From a virus, in IMG/VR virus record IMGVR_UViG_3300027869_000001, positions 1 to 64,000 of that record: a stretch of 64,000 bases of DNA, one strand, 5' to 3'. The position numbers and the translations under genes were made by a program. Shown one piece after another: positions 4,078 to 30,845 of this stretch (the stretch's first letter is position 1; every line of letters starts with the position of its first letter). The notes below the pieces were generated by a model. It was given only the letters and a program-made list of their open reading frames with translations. It made no database searches and was not told the DNA's origin.

Positions 4078-4484
4078 TTATTAGCCCCATGCGCGCGGAT
4101 GTTCGTTGTAACGTGGTACGGGCGCTTTTTGGCGTTCTTCTTTCCGTTGCCGGTTCCAGGCTTGCGCTTGCTGCCAAGCGCTAGAGAAGCCTTGCAAGGC
4201 AACAGCCGATAGATCCCCGGCTCGAACGCTCCCCCTCGGTCGAATGCGACAATCTCTCTGCGGAGAGAGGGCGATGTGGAGTATCTGACCCACTTATTTT
4301 TGACCTTGACATAAGTCCGCCCGATGTGAACGCGCGCCGCTTCTGCCCCCAGCACGCGGATGATTGCTCGGGCCGCCGCGCACTGGCCTGGATCTTTGGT
4401 GGCTCCGGTCCTCACGTCGTTCTTGGTGATTTCCAACTCGATGCCTGACTTGGCGTCTACAACAAGAGTGCCATTGATTTTCAT
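4074..4484 (-). CDS. hypothetical phage protein
   Basis: A 136-residue soluble protein starting MKINGTLVVDAKSG, placed by an ATGA overlap with the upstream gene and a GAGGTACGGGCT leader. It has a mixed alpha/beta look, including a basic strand THVGRTYVKVKNKWVRYST-like stretch and a Lys/Asn-rich tail that may bind nucleic acid. No known domain was recognised. Upstream in-frame starts fall within the neighbouring gene and were rejected. Confidence 0.7.
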   Translation of the reverse strand: MKINGTLVVDAKSGIELEITKNDVRTGATKDPGQCAAARAIIRVLGAEAARVHIGRTYVKVKNKWVRYSTSPSLRREIVAFDRGGAFEPGIYRLLPCKASLALGSKRKPGTGNGKKNAKKRPYHVTTNIRAHGANK

Positions 4485-8481: not shown

Positions 8482-9048
8482 ATGGGCGCGGAATCCTGGG
8501 TTGCCGACACGCCGTGGACGGACGAGCGCGTGGCCGCACTCAAGCGACTATGGGCCGACGGCCTTACGGCGTCACAGATCGCCAGGGAGATCGGCGGCCT
8601 GAGCCACTACGGGGACGGTGGCCGCAGCGCGGTGTGCGGCAAGCTCAGCCGTCTCGGCCTTGGGCGTAGCGATCGAGACCCATCGAAGTTCCGCCCCGGT
8701 CCCAGAAAAATGAGTTCGGCGGCGTCCAGGCCCGCACCTCATCACAACAAGCGCAACGGCGACGCTTTCAAGGTGCTGCACAGGATCAGGCGGAACGCCG
8801 CAGAGGCGCGCGCTGGTGCGGTCGCCGAGGCCGTGGACGATGTTGCCCCGGTCGTGCGGCGCCTCTCCGTGCTCGATCTGCGGGCCGGGGAATGCCGCTG
8901 GCCGCACGGGGACCCTGGCACTCCGGGCTTCGGCTTCTGCGGCGCGCCCGTCGCGTTCGAGGAGTCGTCGTACTGCGGGCATCATCGCGGCATCGCGTAT
9001 CAGAAGGCACCGCTGCGGCCCGTCAGCACGTGGAGGACGTGGCTGTGA
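8482..9048 (+). CDS. GcrA-family cell-cycle regulator homologue
   Basis: A 188-residue protein with a GGGGAGGGGAT site. The N-terminus WTDERVAALKRLWADGLTASQIAREIGG (about residues 12-39) is the GcrA helix-turn-helix. The C-terminus VLDLRAGECRWPHGDPG...FCGAP...YCGHH (about 133-175) is the conserved Cys/His-rich segment that contacts sigma-70. In alphaproteobacteria GcrA binds GANTC sites methylated by CcrM and recruits polymerase. An insertion (HYGDGGRSAV) changes the usual NAVIGK region of the recognition helix, so specificity may differ. It likely redirects cell-cycle or late-gene transcription. Confidence 0.88.
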   Translation: MGAESWVADTPWTDERVAALKRLWADGLTASQIAREIGGLSHYGDGGRSAVCGKLSRLGLGRSDRDPSKFRPGPRKMSSAASRPAPHHNKRNGDAFKVLHRIRRNAAEARAGAVAEAVDDVAPVVRRLSVLDLRAGECRWPHGDPGTPGFGFCGAPVAFEESSYCGHHRGIAYQKAPLRPVSTWRTWL

Positions 9049-26782: not shown

Positions 26783-27718
26783 ATGCCTCCAAACATGATC
26801 GGCGCCGTATCCTCGCCGGCGCTGATGGCGGCCAACGGTGTCGAAGGCGGAGGTCCTCCCGCCACGCAGACAACCGAGGCTGCCCCGGCCGCAGCTTCGG
26901 GCGCCAACGGGGCTGCGGCCGCCGCTTCCGCTGAGACTCCCGTTGTCGAGACGCCTGCTGCGGCAGCGCCGTCTCCTGCTGCGACCGAGACGGCCGCCCC
27001 TGCGGCACCGGCAACGCCAGAGCCGCCCAAGAACGAATTTGCGCCGACGCTGCTCGAAGAAGCCGCGGCCAAACCGACCGACGCCAAGCCGGAAGAAAAG
27101 CCCGGCGAGGCAAAGGAAGCAAAGCCAGACGGCGAGAAGAAGCCCGACGGCGAAGCGAAGCCCGCGGAAGCCCCCGGCGAGACGCCTCCGGCTCCGACCT
27201 ACGAGTTCACCTATCCCGAGGGCATCAAGCCAGAGGATGTCAGTTCGGAACGCATGACGGCCTTCACCTCTCTGCTTGGAGAGGGAGAAGATCGGGTAAC
27301 ACCCGCCAAGGCTCAGAAGCTGCTCGACCTGCATCTCGCGGAGGTGGGACAGGTCGCCCAGAAGCTCGCACAGAAGCAATGGGACGTGTTTCAGGAGCAG
27401 CAGCGCGCAGCCAAGGAGCAGGTGCTTTCCGATCCCGAGCTTGGCGGATCAAGACATCAGACCGCCATCCGGGAAATCATGTCGTTCATCGAGCAGTTCG
27501 GCGGGACGGCAGAGGAGCGCAAACAACTGTTTGACGATTTCCGCGCAACGGGAATCGCCAACCGCGTTTCGCTCCTGCGCATGCTGCGGAGGGCCGGCGT
27601 TGCTCTCGCGAGAGAGGGTGCTCCCCACTCGGCTCCGCCGCCGCGCTCGCCCGCGCCTACCAGGCAACAGCGGCAGCTTGCCCGCTACGAGAAGACGACG
27701 CCGGCTGCCGCCGGCTGA
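26783..27718 (+). CDS. capsid scaffolding protein
   Basis: A 311-residue protein just before the major capsid gene. Residues 1-140 are disordered Ala/Pro/Glu-rich sequence, as in many scaffolds. Residues about 150-270 are helical, with KQWDVFQEQQRAAKEQVLSDPELGGSRHQTAIREIMSFIEQFG and RVSLLRMLRRAGVALARE. The last part is typical of podovirus scaffolds, which guide procapsid assembly and then leave. Confidence 0.78.
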   Translation: MPPNMIGAVSSPALMAANGVEGGGPPATQTTEAAPAAASGANGAAAAASAETPVVETPAAAAPSPAATETAAPAAPATPEPPKNEFAPTLLEEAAAKPTDAKPEEKPGEAKEAKPDGEKKPDGEAKPAEAPGETPPAPTYEFTYPEGIKPEDVSSERMTAFTSLLGEGEDRVTPAKAQKLLDLHLAEVGQVAQKLAQKQWDVFQEQQRAAKEQVLSDPELGGSRHQTAIREIMSFIEQFGGTAEERKQLFDDFRATGIANRVSLLRMLRRAGVALAREGAPHSAPPPRSPAPTRQQRQLARYEKTTPAAAG

Positions 27719-27745
27719 GTCTGCGCCTGATGGAACCATGAATCC

Positions 27746-27796
27746 GGCCGCGTCGTGAGACGCCGCCTTTCCCCGCGCCCGTCGTGAGACGCGCGC
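27746..27796. promoter_or_regulatory. two GTGA-loop hairpins before the major capsid gene
   Basis: Two adjacent hairpins (27746-27767 and 27775-27796), each built on CGTC/GACG-type stems around the loop GTGA and each followed by CTTTCCC. They lie between the scaffold stop and the capsid start and resemble a third hairpin at 31934. They could be weak terminators, RNA-processing sites or stabilisers of the capsid message. Confidence 0.5.
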
Positions 27797-27841
27797 TTTC
27801 CCTGAGCGTGGCCGCGCGCCGCGCCTGATGGAGTAACGGCC

Positions 27842-28879
27842 ATCGCCTATCTCACGCTCGCCGATTGGGCCCGCCGCGTCGGTCCCGACGGCAACATCGA
27901 CGACATCGCCGAGCTTCTTGCCCAGTGCAACGAAATCTTCGACGACATGCTCATCCGCGAGGGCAACCAGCCCTTGGGACACACTGGAACGGTTCGCACC
28001 GGACTGCCCCAGGGCACGTGGCGCAACTTCTACCAGGGCGTTCAGTTCACCAAGTCGACCACGGCGCAGATCACCGACACGATCGGTGAATTGGTCGCCT
28101 ACTCGCGGGTGGACCGCTCGCTCGCCGAGTTGGATGGCCAGATCGCCGAGACGCGACTGACCGAGGACAATGCCCACCTCGAGGGCCTCAGCCAGCAGAT
28201 GGCCACTACCGCCTTCTACGGCAACGAGGCCGTGACGCAGGCGCAGTTTACGGGACTTGCCCCGCGCTACAACACAATCAGCACGGCCAATGCGCAGAAC
28301 GCGGTCAACGTGCTCAGTGCCGGCGGCTCCGCCTCGGCCAACACCTCGATCTGGCTGTGCTGCTGGGGAGAGCAGACCGGCTTCGGCTTTTACCCGAAAG
28401 CCTCCAAGGCCGGGCTGACCTTCGAGGACAAGGGCGATATCCGTCCCGGCTTCGACGTCAACAATCGGGAATTCGAGGCCTTCACCTCGTTCTTCATGTG
28501 GAAGATGGGCGTCCACATCAAGAACTGGCAGTTTTTTGCGCGCATCTGCAACATCGACACGACGACCGCCGGGCTTGCCGGCGCAACCCCGCCCGACCTG
28601 TTCGCGATGATGAACAAGCTGCTCTACCGCATGCCCACGTCGGGCCGGCGGATGAGCGGGATTACCAAGGTCGACGCGCCCAACCAACCGTCTCCGGCGA
28701 TTCGCCCGGCGTTCTACTGGAATCGCACTTGCGCCCAGTATGCGGCGATCCAGGCCATCCGCGACAAGAACGTGCTGCTCAAGCCGACCGAGTACGAGGG
28801 CCAGCCGATCCTGGAGTTCCGGGGCGTGCCGCTGCGCGTCTGTGACGTGATCCTCAACACCGAATCGACGCTGACCTAG
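27842..28879 (+). CDS. major capsid protein, apparent ATC start
   Basis: A 345-residue podovirus-type major capsid protein: AYLTLADWARRVGPDGNIDDIAELLAQCNEIFDDM, GHTGTVRTGLPQGTWRNFYQGVQFTKSTTAQITD, and FYGNEAVTQAQFTGLAPRYNTIS. The family N-terminus M-A-x-L-x-L-A aligns with an ATC codon at 27842, which has GGAG eight bases upstream. No ATG, GTG or TTG exists in frame between the stop at 27803 and 27944. Starting at the ATG at 27947 would delete the first 35 conserved residues. The stop shares bases with the stop of the convergent HNH gene. Confidence 0.88.
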   Translation: MAYLTLADWARRVGPDGNIDDIAELLAQCNEIFDDMLIREGNQPLGHTGTVRTGLPQGTWRNFYQGVQFTKSTTAQITDTIGELVAYSRVDRSLAELDGQIAETRLTEDNAHLEGLSQQMATTAFYGNEAVTQAQFTGLAPRYNTISTANAQNAVNVLSAGGSASANTSIWLCCWGEQTGFGFYPKASKAGLTFEDKGDIRPGFDVNNREFEAFTSFFMWKMGVHIKNWQFFARICNIDTTTAGLAGATPPDLFAMMNKLLYRMPTSGRRMSGITKVDAPNQPSPAIRPAFYWNRTCAQYAAIQAIRDKNVLLKPTEYEGQPILEFRGVPLRVCDVILNTESTLT

Positions 28880-29397
28880 GCTCTGGCAAACTCGCCATAG
28901 AGCGTCTTCGCCGCCTCAAGATAAGCGGCGCTGGCCTCTTCAGGAGAATCGAACAGACCGAGATGGCGGAACTTACGATTTACGCAAATGTACGCGCGCC
29001 ATTTTCTGTTTGCGGCAAGCCATCCCACACCCTTGCGGCCAGACTTGCTGTTCTTTTGAGGTCTCCTGTTCTGCATGTTCTGCCCCTTCGTCGCGAGCCG
29101 AAGGTTGGACCAGCGGTTGTTCATCCCGTCCATGTCTGCATGGTCAATGAACGAGTCCGGCCACTCGCCGGTCATGTAGAGCCATGCGAGACGGTGCAAG
29201 CTATAGGTCCGTCCGTCAAGAGTGATGGCCAAGTAATCACTTTTACCACACGCGGGCGTAAAGCGGGTTCCGGCTACAATTCCCGCAGGAATGCGCTTTC
29301 TTCCACCGTGAACAACCCTCCAGGTAAACACTCCGGTATCGGGGTCGTACCGAAGAAGCGATCTCAGCCGATCGGCGCTTATTTGCTCTTTGGCCAT
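28876..29397 (-). CDS. HNH endonuclease with AP2 domain
   Basis: A 173-residue protein on the strand opposite to the head genes. Residues about 8-45 (LRSLLRYDPDTGVFTWRV) and YSLHRLAWLYMTGEWPDSFIDHADMDGMNNRWSNLRLAT (about 64-102) are the NUMOD4/HNH-type nuclease core. SGRKGVGWLAANRKWRAYICVNRKFRHLGLFDSPEEASAAYLEAA (about 118-163) is an AP2 DNA-binding domain. It is a homing-type mobile gene inserted between capsid and cement genes, abutting both. Confidence 0.9.
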   Translation of the reverse strand: MAKEQISADRLRSLLRYDPDTGVFTWRVVHGGRKRIPAGIVAGTRFTPACGKSDYLAITLDGRTYSLHRLAWLYMTGEWPDSFIDHADMDGMNNRWSNLRLATKGQNMQNRRPQKNSKSGRKGVGWLAANRKWRAYICVNRKFRHLGLFDSPEEASAAYLEAAKTLYGEFARA

Positions 29398-29471
29398 TCA
29401 ATGGCTCCTGTGCAGGTGGATACTGCAAGGTTGTAGCAAATAGCCGATCACATAAAAAGGGAGTACGTGTC

Positions 29472-30074
29472 ATCCAGACCGACGGAAACTTGCTGTTTAC
29501 TGGTGGAAACACTGGATCAGCACAAGCAATCACCTCCACCGCCGTCCGCTCCACCGGGATCTTCGATCTCGGCACGGGCCTCATGAACACCGGCACCACC
29601 TATTCGGCGCCGGTCGTCTCCGGCGGCGGCTTCCTGCTCAATGCGGCGCTGCTGTTCGGCGAGGACCTGGGGCCGGGCGCGCAGCGTCTGCGCCTGCTCG
29701 CCATCATCGGCACGGCGTTCACCGGGGGCACCTCGCTTAACATCCAGATCCAGGGCGCGCCGGATGCCTCGGGAGGCACTTATCCGGCGAACCTGTCGGG
29801 CCTGACGTGGGTCACTTATGTGGAGACCGGGGCCATTCCGACCGCTGATCTCGCCACGGCCGCGGCTGCCGGCGTGATCCCGTCGAAGAGCATCATCACG
29901 CTCCCCGACTTTCCCGACCGCTTGCTGACCACGGCGCTGCCGCGGTTCATCTCGCTCAACTACGTGCCGGCGGGCACGTTCTCGGGAGGGGCGATCTCCG
30001 CGGCGGGCGTGTTCCTCGGCAAGCCCGATTTCAACGTGGGCATGTACCCCGGCGGCTTCGTGGTCGCGGCGTAA
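29472..30074 (+). CDS. Bbp16-like capsid cement protein, apparent ATC start
   Basis: A 200-residue beta-rich protein: QTDGNLLFTGGNTGSAQAITSTAVRSTGIFDLGTG, then LLNAALLFGEDLGPGAQRLRLLAIIGTAF and PDFPDRLLTTALPRFISLNYV. It follows the pattern of the Bbp16 cement family that decorates BPP-1-type capsids in equal number with the major capsid protein. The likely start is ATC at 29472, with GGAGTA eight bases before it exactly as for the capsid gene. The only standard start nearby, TTG at 29490, removes conserved residues and lacks a site. Confidence 0.78.
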   Translation: MQTDGNLLFTGGNTGSAQAITSTAVRSTGIFDLGTGLMNTGTTYSAPVVSGGGFLLNAALLFGEDLGPGAQRLRLLAIIGTAFTGGTSLNIQIQGAPDASGGTYPANLSGLTWVTYVETGAIPTADLATAAAAGVIPSKSIITLPDFPDRLLTTALPRFISLNYVPAGTFSGGAISAAGVFLGKPDFNVGMYPGGFVVAA

Positions 30075-30089
30075 CGGAGGCCCTGATCC

Positions 30090-30845
30090 ATGTCGAACGT
30101 CGAACCCAACCGGAAAGCCTCGCCGGCCGCCGCCGACGAGGAAATCCGCGCGCTGCGCGCCGAGCTTGCAAGGCGCAACCACCACATCGCCGCGCTCGAA
30201 CAGGCGACCGGTGGCCTGACCGTCCTCGAGCCGGAGGAACGGCCGGTCTACGAAATGCTCGAGCCGTGGTTCTCCCCCGATTGCGTCTACTACCCCACGG
30301 GCGCGCAGGTGGAGGACATCACCGGGACCATCGTTCCCAACGAGCACATGGTGCCGCTCAACGCCGCGGCCGAAGCGCGGATGATGGAATATCTGTCCGC
30401 ACTGCCGGATTCGGGGACGCTGCCACGCGACCTTCTCATCGAGGCCGCGATGCAGATCAGGCCGCGGGAGGGGGACGATCCCCGCCTCGTCGCGGAGTAC
30501 CACGGCCGCGTCGTCGAGCGCGCGATGGAGCTCAAGTACATGCGCGAGGGCCGCATCAAGCCCGGTCCTGGCGAGAAGCCTCCGGTGCGCATGCCGGTCA
30601 GGCTGCCGACCAAGCCGGGCCACGTGCCGGTTATGGCGAACGTGCGCATCCGAGAGGTGCACCAGGAAGATCGGTTTGGCGGCTACCGTGACCGGTTCAT
30701 GCCGGGTACGCTTCCGCAACGTCCCGCCAATGTCACGAGGCAACGCGCTCCTGCCCAGTCGGCTGCGGAGAAATCCGCGCCGGTCATGGGCACGGTGGCG
30801 AGCCAGCCGCTCGGCAATGTCGGGCCGGGCGTCACCGCACCATGA
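30090..30845 (+). CDS. hypothetical virion-region protein
   Basis: A 251-residue protein behind GGAGGCCCTGATCC. A coiled N-terminus (EEIRALRAELARRNHHIAALEQ) is followed by YEMLEPWFSPDCVYYPTGAQVEDITGTIVPNEHMVPLN and a Pro/Arg-rich end. The conserved centre is seen beside cement genes in related phages. The function is unknown, possibly head assembly. Confidence 0.65.
   Translation: MSNVEPNRKASPAAADEEIRALRAELARRNHHIAALEQATGGLTVLEPEERPVYEMLEPWFSPDCVYYPTGAQVEDITGTIVPNEHMVPLNAAAEARMMEYLSALPDSGTLPRDLLIEAAMQIRPREGDDPRLVAEYHGRVVERAMELKYMREGRIKPGPGEKPPVRMPVRLPTKPGHVPVMANVRIREVHQEDRFGGYRDRFMPGTLPQRPANVTRQRAPAQSAAEKSAPVMGTVASQPLGNVGPGVTAP

Follow-up and report, generated by a model that had tools for sequence, protein, structure and literature searches.

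Apparent AUC start codons behind a recurring leader in virion genes of an uncultured epsilon15-like phage

Introduction

Where does translation begin in two virion genes whose reading frames both open with ATC, behind the same ribosome-binding motif? Near-cognate AUN start codons are thought to be rare in bacteria, the textbook cases being infC and pcnB, and no report of such starts for phage capsid, portal or cement genes was found in the literature searched. The two genes discussed here belong to an uncultured virus (IMG/VR record IMGVR_UViG_3300027869_000001, 65,839 bases or 65.8 kb in total), of which positions 1 to 64,000 were analysed and are referred to as the window. One of the two carries a 12-base leader that also stands before virion genes opening with AUC in many phages without other relationship, and AUC start in phage virion genes looks like a real, recurring and probably regulated mode of translation start rather than an error. 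If it is real, gene finders overlook these genes or misplace their starts, common phage marker genes among them, phages gain a handle on initiation fidelity (IF3) that controls virion assembly, and a compact initiation element of 15 nt becomes open to testing.

The phage and its head module

The record is a temperate, epsilon15-like phage whose head module encodes terminase, a head-tail adaptor, protease/scaffold, a PF20911 major capsid protein and a second virion protein. The integrase gene at the far end of the record and a homolog of GcrA, a cell-cycle regulator of Alphaproteobacteria (window 8482-9048), together point to a temperate phage of Alphaproteobacteria, which are its probable hosts; scans of genome contigs confirmed no bacterial prophage homologs. 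The PF20911 profile matches the capsid protein along its whole length (E 3.4e-108). The second virion protein, whose gene adjoins the capsid gene, is by its predicted fold a jellyroll cement protein of the BPP-1/Carin1 type, the best matches of a structure model with a mean pLDDT of 63.8 being the Carin1 capsid protein (8cjz, E 2e-5) and the Bordetella phage cement protein (3j4u, E 4e-3). The epsilon15 / phiV10 / BPP-1 module likewise has a PF20911 capsid gene and then a jellyroll cement-type gene, and phiV10 keeps the same order, but, unlike the window phage, it has ATG at both genes. The features of the locus are as follows.

27830..27841, plus strand: capsid leader GGAGTAACGGCC, with the Shine-Dalgarno motif GGAG and an 8-nt spacer; its counterpart in contig L011 is GGAGTAACGACC, also before ATC
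27842..27844, plus strand: ATC, apparent start codon of the major capsid gene, aligned with the ATG of relatives at 85-88% identity and lacking a canonical alternative
27842..28879, plus strand: major capsid protein gene, epsilon15 gp7 family (PF20911 / phrog_212)
28876..29397, minus strand: HNH endonuclease gene (HNH_3 domain; phrog_99), antisense between the capsid and cement genes, its stop overlapping the capsid stop
29460..29471, plus strand: cement leader GGAGTACGTGTC, a recurring phage element by sequence recurrence
29472..29474, plus strand: ATC, apparent start codon of the cement gene, aligned with the ATG of relatives at 72-75% identity and with the ATC of contig L091
29472..30074, plus strand: cement (capsid decoration) protein gene, by predicted fold and by its place after the capsid gene in relatives

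Two virion genes that open with ATC

The first-pass annotation had pointed to the same GGAGTA, the same 8-nt gap and the same ATC before the capsid and cement genes, with an HNH gene separating the two, and all of this is borne out by the sequence. GGAG-TAACGGCC-ATC leads into the capsid frame and GGAG-TACGTGTC-ATC into the cement frame; the two 8-nt spacers differ in sequence, and identity is confined to GGAGTA and ATC. The window contains just two copies of GGAGTANNNNNNATC, both at these starts, against a shuffle expectation of 0.13, and none of 100 shuffles reached two copies.

It had also been claimed that no ATG, GTG or TTG would keep the conserved N-termini, and this holds for both genes. 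The capsid frame contains none of the three codons upstream as far as its stop, and the next canonical start lies 35 codons downstream, within the conserved N-terminus. Between codons 2 and 35, comparisons with relatives give 9-12 synonymous and 1-3 nonsynonymous codon differences, an excess that points to purifying selection, as expected of translated sequence. The cement frame likewise has no ATG, GTG or TTG upstream; TTG 29490 stands six codons into the frame, and a start there would lose the conserved QTD.NL. Neither gene is interrupted by a stop codon. Upstream or out-of-frame starts were considered for both genes and none fit, and an intron hiding the true start was rejected, as there is no Rfam intron match in window 26800-30400 and the overlapping stops of the capsid and HNH genes leave no room for a 5' exon.

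All other window genes with homologs have a normally placed start. A screen of 13 contigs (233 homology-anchored gene ends) for frames lacking ATG, GTG and TTG near the conserved start flagged four, namely the window capsid, the window cement, the cement of L091/G010 and a probably spurious frame at the end of contig G006. The leader region of the capsid gene also contains two tandem 29-nt repeats (window 27744-27801), each with a CGTC-GTGA-GACG hairpin with a GNRA-type loop; L091 has one copy.

Comparison with relatives

Alignment of homologs at the two codons, a check that had been proposed with the first-pass annotation, gave a divided answer. The closest relatives have ATG at both genes (capsid identity 85-88% in L021, L022, L025 and L026, cement identity 72-75%), while ATC is found at one gene each in two phages from other samples. 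L091 has GGAGTACGTGTC-ATC before a cement gene of only 42% identity, with 17 consecutive bases matching the window at the leader between poorly conserved flanks, and its capsid starts with ATG. L011, whose capsid is 75% identical, has its ATC before the capsid gene and starts its cement gene with ATG; an in-frame ATG three codons past the ATC makes it an ambiguous case, so that support for the capsid site consists of the window and one ambiguous partner. As ATC and the same or a similar leader recur in these two phages from other samples, sequencing error is unlikely, in agreement with the earlier view that the non-canonical starts are not two random errors. The further suggestion that capsid and cement form a matched dosage pair is not supported, since the spacers differ, ATC is at the capsid only in L011 and at the cement only in L091/G010, and the 85-88% relatives use ATG at both. 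L011 (2457-3158) and G008 (4211-4402) have, in addition, a second capsid-like gene ahead of the capsid gene, diverged and partial.

A recurring leader before ATC in other phages

A viral collection of 2.9 million contigs was scanned with a single fixed query, RGGAGTACGTGTC-AT[C/G], which returned 42 contigs, 28 with ATC and 14 with ATG. An open reading frame opens at that ATC in 28 of the 28 ATC contigs, about a dozen of which represent one near-identical gene. Seven of the ATG contigs open frames of at least 60 codons and seven resemble non-genes. About ten families are represented among the ATC genes, and all those whose function is recognised belong to the virion: cement, portal (phrog_145), major head (phrog_334, in G022 and in the intron-containing L211/L226 group), head closure Hc3 (phrog_578), DNA ejection (phrog_598) and structural proteins (phrog_280, phrog_6121), next to three families without assigned function. 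In four families the leader and ATC are common to homologs at 34-56% identity; the ATC start is kept in the L091 cement and within four other families, whereas the closest relatives of the window use ATG. The ATC form is present as one copy in each of eleven contigs ascertained by the leader, and in phages other than that of the window it occurs once per contig, before a portal, ejection, head-closure or capsid gene.

Several of these frames leave little choice of start. In G022, a stop lies five codons before the ATC of the capsid frame, and no canonical start follows within 65 codons; in G018 the stop is likewise five codons before the ATC and the next canonical start is at 32; the G020 frame lacks canonical starts ahead of its ATC, and the first one after it is at 92. 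The portal ATC coincides with the annotated ATG of the cultured phages RDJL3 and NP1, and the G022 capsid ATC with the annotated ATG of Acidovorax AP1. A strict count of frames with a Shine-Dalgarno motif and ATC in related contigs was not above that of other codons, so the claim rests on GGAGTA-type leaders together with homology. Folding of the leaders revealed no structure in common, and a structured leader was accordingly rejected. When L213 and L231 are compared with L197, homology starts exactly at the leader while the upstream genes differ, as would be seen if the leader marked the edge of a module.

Near-cognate starts in bacteria

AUC can initiate in E. coli, where it ranks within the top seven codons by initiation strength (PMC12350097) and where one native ATC-initiated upstream start has been seen by N-terminomics (PMC13245402). 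AUC starts belong to the IF3-repressed class, as the first-pass annotation had stated; members of this class are sigR, with GTC, and infC, with ATT in E. coli but ATC in Streptomyces (PMC5472188). In S. aureus reporters, near-cognate AUN starts (AUA/AUU) behind a strong Shine-Dalgarno motif give about 10-30% of AUG (PMC13009471).

The closest parallel is infC (ATT in E. coli and Rhizobiales, ATC in Streptomyces, AUA in S. aureus), which, like the phage sites, has an AUN start behind a strong Shine-Dalgarno motif and in one case uses AUC itself (PMC5472188). In Rhizobiales, S. meliloti included, the infC start reads GGAGAGTACGACC-ATT; the plasmid-borne infC genes in Rhodobacterales and Azospirillum have an apparent ATA start. 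Both phage genes share two features with infC, a non-NUG start, here lacking a canonical alternative, and a Shine-Dalgarno motif at normal spacing, here GGAG with 8 nt. However, infC is one host gene controlled by feedback, while the phage case involves unrelated virion genes with one common leader, for which IF3 control is proposed. The idea that the cement leader was copied from a host infC leader was discarded, as none of four alphaproteobacterial plasmid-collection records contains the exact sequence. Streptomyces sigR likewise has a non-canonical start that keeps the gene down through IF3 (PMC5472188), but it differs in codon, in being a host regulator and in that its IF3 repression has been experimentally shown. 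In S. aureus, the AUA/AUU starts of infC, cvfC1 and ccpN are selected by strong Shine-Dalgarno motifs (PMC13009471); these are host genes whose motif is an extension of the Shine-Dalgarno sequence, whereas in the phage leader the spacer too is identical across genes.

AUC as the probable start codon and the competing explanations

The explanation we favour, and consider probable with some reserve, is that AUC is the real start of both genes within a recurring, infC-like phage initiation element. Its parts differ in strength. Judged from sequence, AUC is very likely the true start codon: we infer initiation there from the location of the codons, the lack of alternatives, the recurrence across phages and the bias towards virion genes, all of which can be read directly in the contigs. 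Selection on the leader and AUC as a unit is likely. Control of the IF3 type is a tentative element, with slightly less than an even chance, and IF3 sensitivity and late timing are speculative. The cement site would be one copy of RGGAGUACGUGUC-AUC, a strong Shine-Dalgarno motif, a fixed 8-nt spacer and AUC, placed before virion genes of many phages, and the capsid site a related variant, GGAGUAACGRCC-AUC. Aided by the strong Shine-Dalgarno motif, fMet-tRNA would initiate at AUC. Because AUC and the initiator anticodon mispair at the third base, IF3 should repress a start of this kind, holding it down as at infC and letting it rise whenever there is little free IF3 per 30S subunit. The result would be a weak start depending on growth state or infection phase, and virion genes might go up late, as free IF3 falls relative to ribosomes; the late-phase switch raised in the first-pass annotation is possible in this form. 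Against this explanation stand the ATG codons of the closest relatives at both genes, and a weak start for the most abundant virion proteins is counter-intuitive. IF3 sensitivity alone also leaves the pairing of one spacer with AUC (or AUU) unexplained, so that a factor reading the leader stays conceivable. In its strongest form, which we regard as unlikely, RGGAGUACGUGUC-AUC would be a dedicated signal by which a phage or host factor, or a late-infection state of the ribosome, licenses AUC (and AUU) initiation, placing one key virion gene per phage under rules unlike those of host AUG messages. No PF05198 match to a phage IF3 occurs anywhere in the record. Neither the record nor the ATC loci searched yielded a tRNA, and recoding by a phage tRNA reading AUC was rejected on this ground.

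A simpler possibility, with a small but real chance of being right, is that the change from ATG to ATC just lowers translation of structural genes, with no dedicated control, and that the leader recurs as a good ribosome-binding site passed from phage to phage. The S. aureus reporter values (PMC13009471), the sporadic occurrence of ATC with ATG in close relatives, and the L213-L197 homology that begins at the leader would all fit, but the collection scan found the leader less often with ATG than with ATC, and both leader and ATC have been kept in homologs at 34-56% identity. It would be more surprising if the start region were, or had been, a target of HNH endonucleases inserted nearby, ATG to ATC being an immunity change spread by co-conversion. 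An HNH gene lies within 750 nt upstream in three ATC gene families, against a background of 1.4%, L091 has an HNH homolog (53%) at the same place, and in the epsilon15-like group the cement has ATC in the two HNH-bearing phages and ATG in those without HNH. Most ATC families, at many loci, nevertheless have no HNH nearby, the window capsid site has none upstream, and ATT stands behind the same leader in G022. Leader and ATC are present in both L197, with an HNH gene about 230 nt away, and L201, without one, which shows that HNH is not the source of the leader; for this reason, and given the many loci without HNH, the view of the leader as a component of a free-standing HNH homing cassette was rejected.

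The remaining two explanations seem to us very improbable, slightly more so than the HNH effect. One is that the ATC bases are assembly errors or marks of dying genes, in keeping with the origin of all sequences in metagenome assemblies and with the ATG of the 85-88% relatives; yet leader and ATC recur in several gene families from independent samples, the N-terminal capsid codons are under purifying selection, and both genes are free of interrupting stops. The other places the true starts downstream, at ATG 27947 for the capsid and TTG 29490 for the cement, which are in frame and would be chosen by standard ORF rules. Either codon would cost the conserved N-terminus, however; ATG 27947 has no Shine-Dalgarno motif, L091 has CTA at the position of the TTG, and G022, G018 and G020 offer no close alternative.

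Hosts and further features of the ATC-leader phages

GcrA homologs are also found in several other ATC-leader phages; five of 14 ATC records have one (one of them below the cut-off), against none of the three ATG relatives searched. This suggests alphaproteobacterial hosts for some of them at least, and Alphaproteobacteria are probably hosts of at least some phages with the recurring leader. Other AUN codons appear in similar positions. In G022 (L249, reverse strand, offset 5384), the leader GGAGTACGTGTC stands before ATT and a frame of 115 codons, while the capsid gene of the same contig has the leader with ATC. A phrog_2941 structural gene in L241 (G017 28214-29038, minus strand) has an apparent ATA start after GTGGAGTAATT. 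In L211, a group I intron (RF00028; 3626-3838, minus strand) lies in a phrog_334-type capsid gene, after a first exon of 25 codons that opens at ATC, and in L226 there is another such match, located farther downstream.
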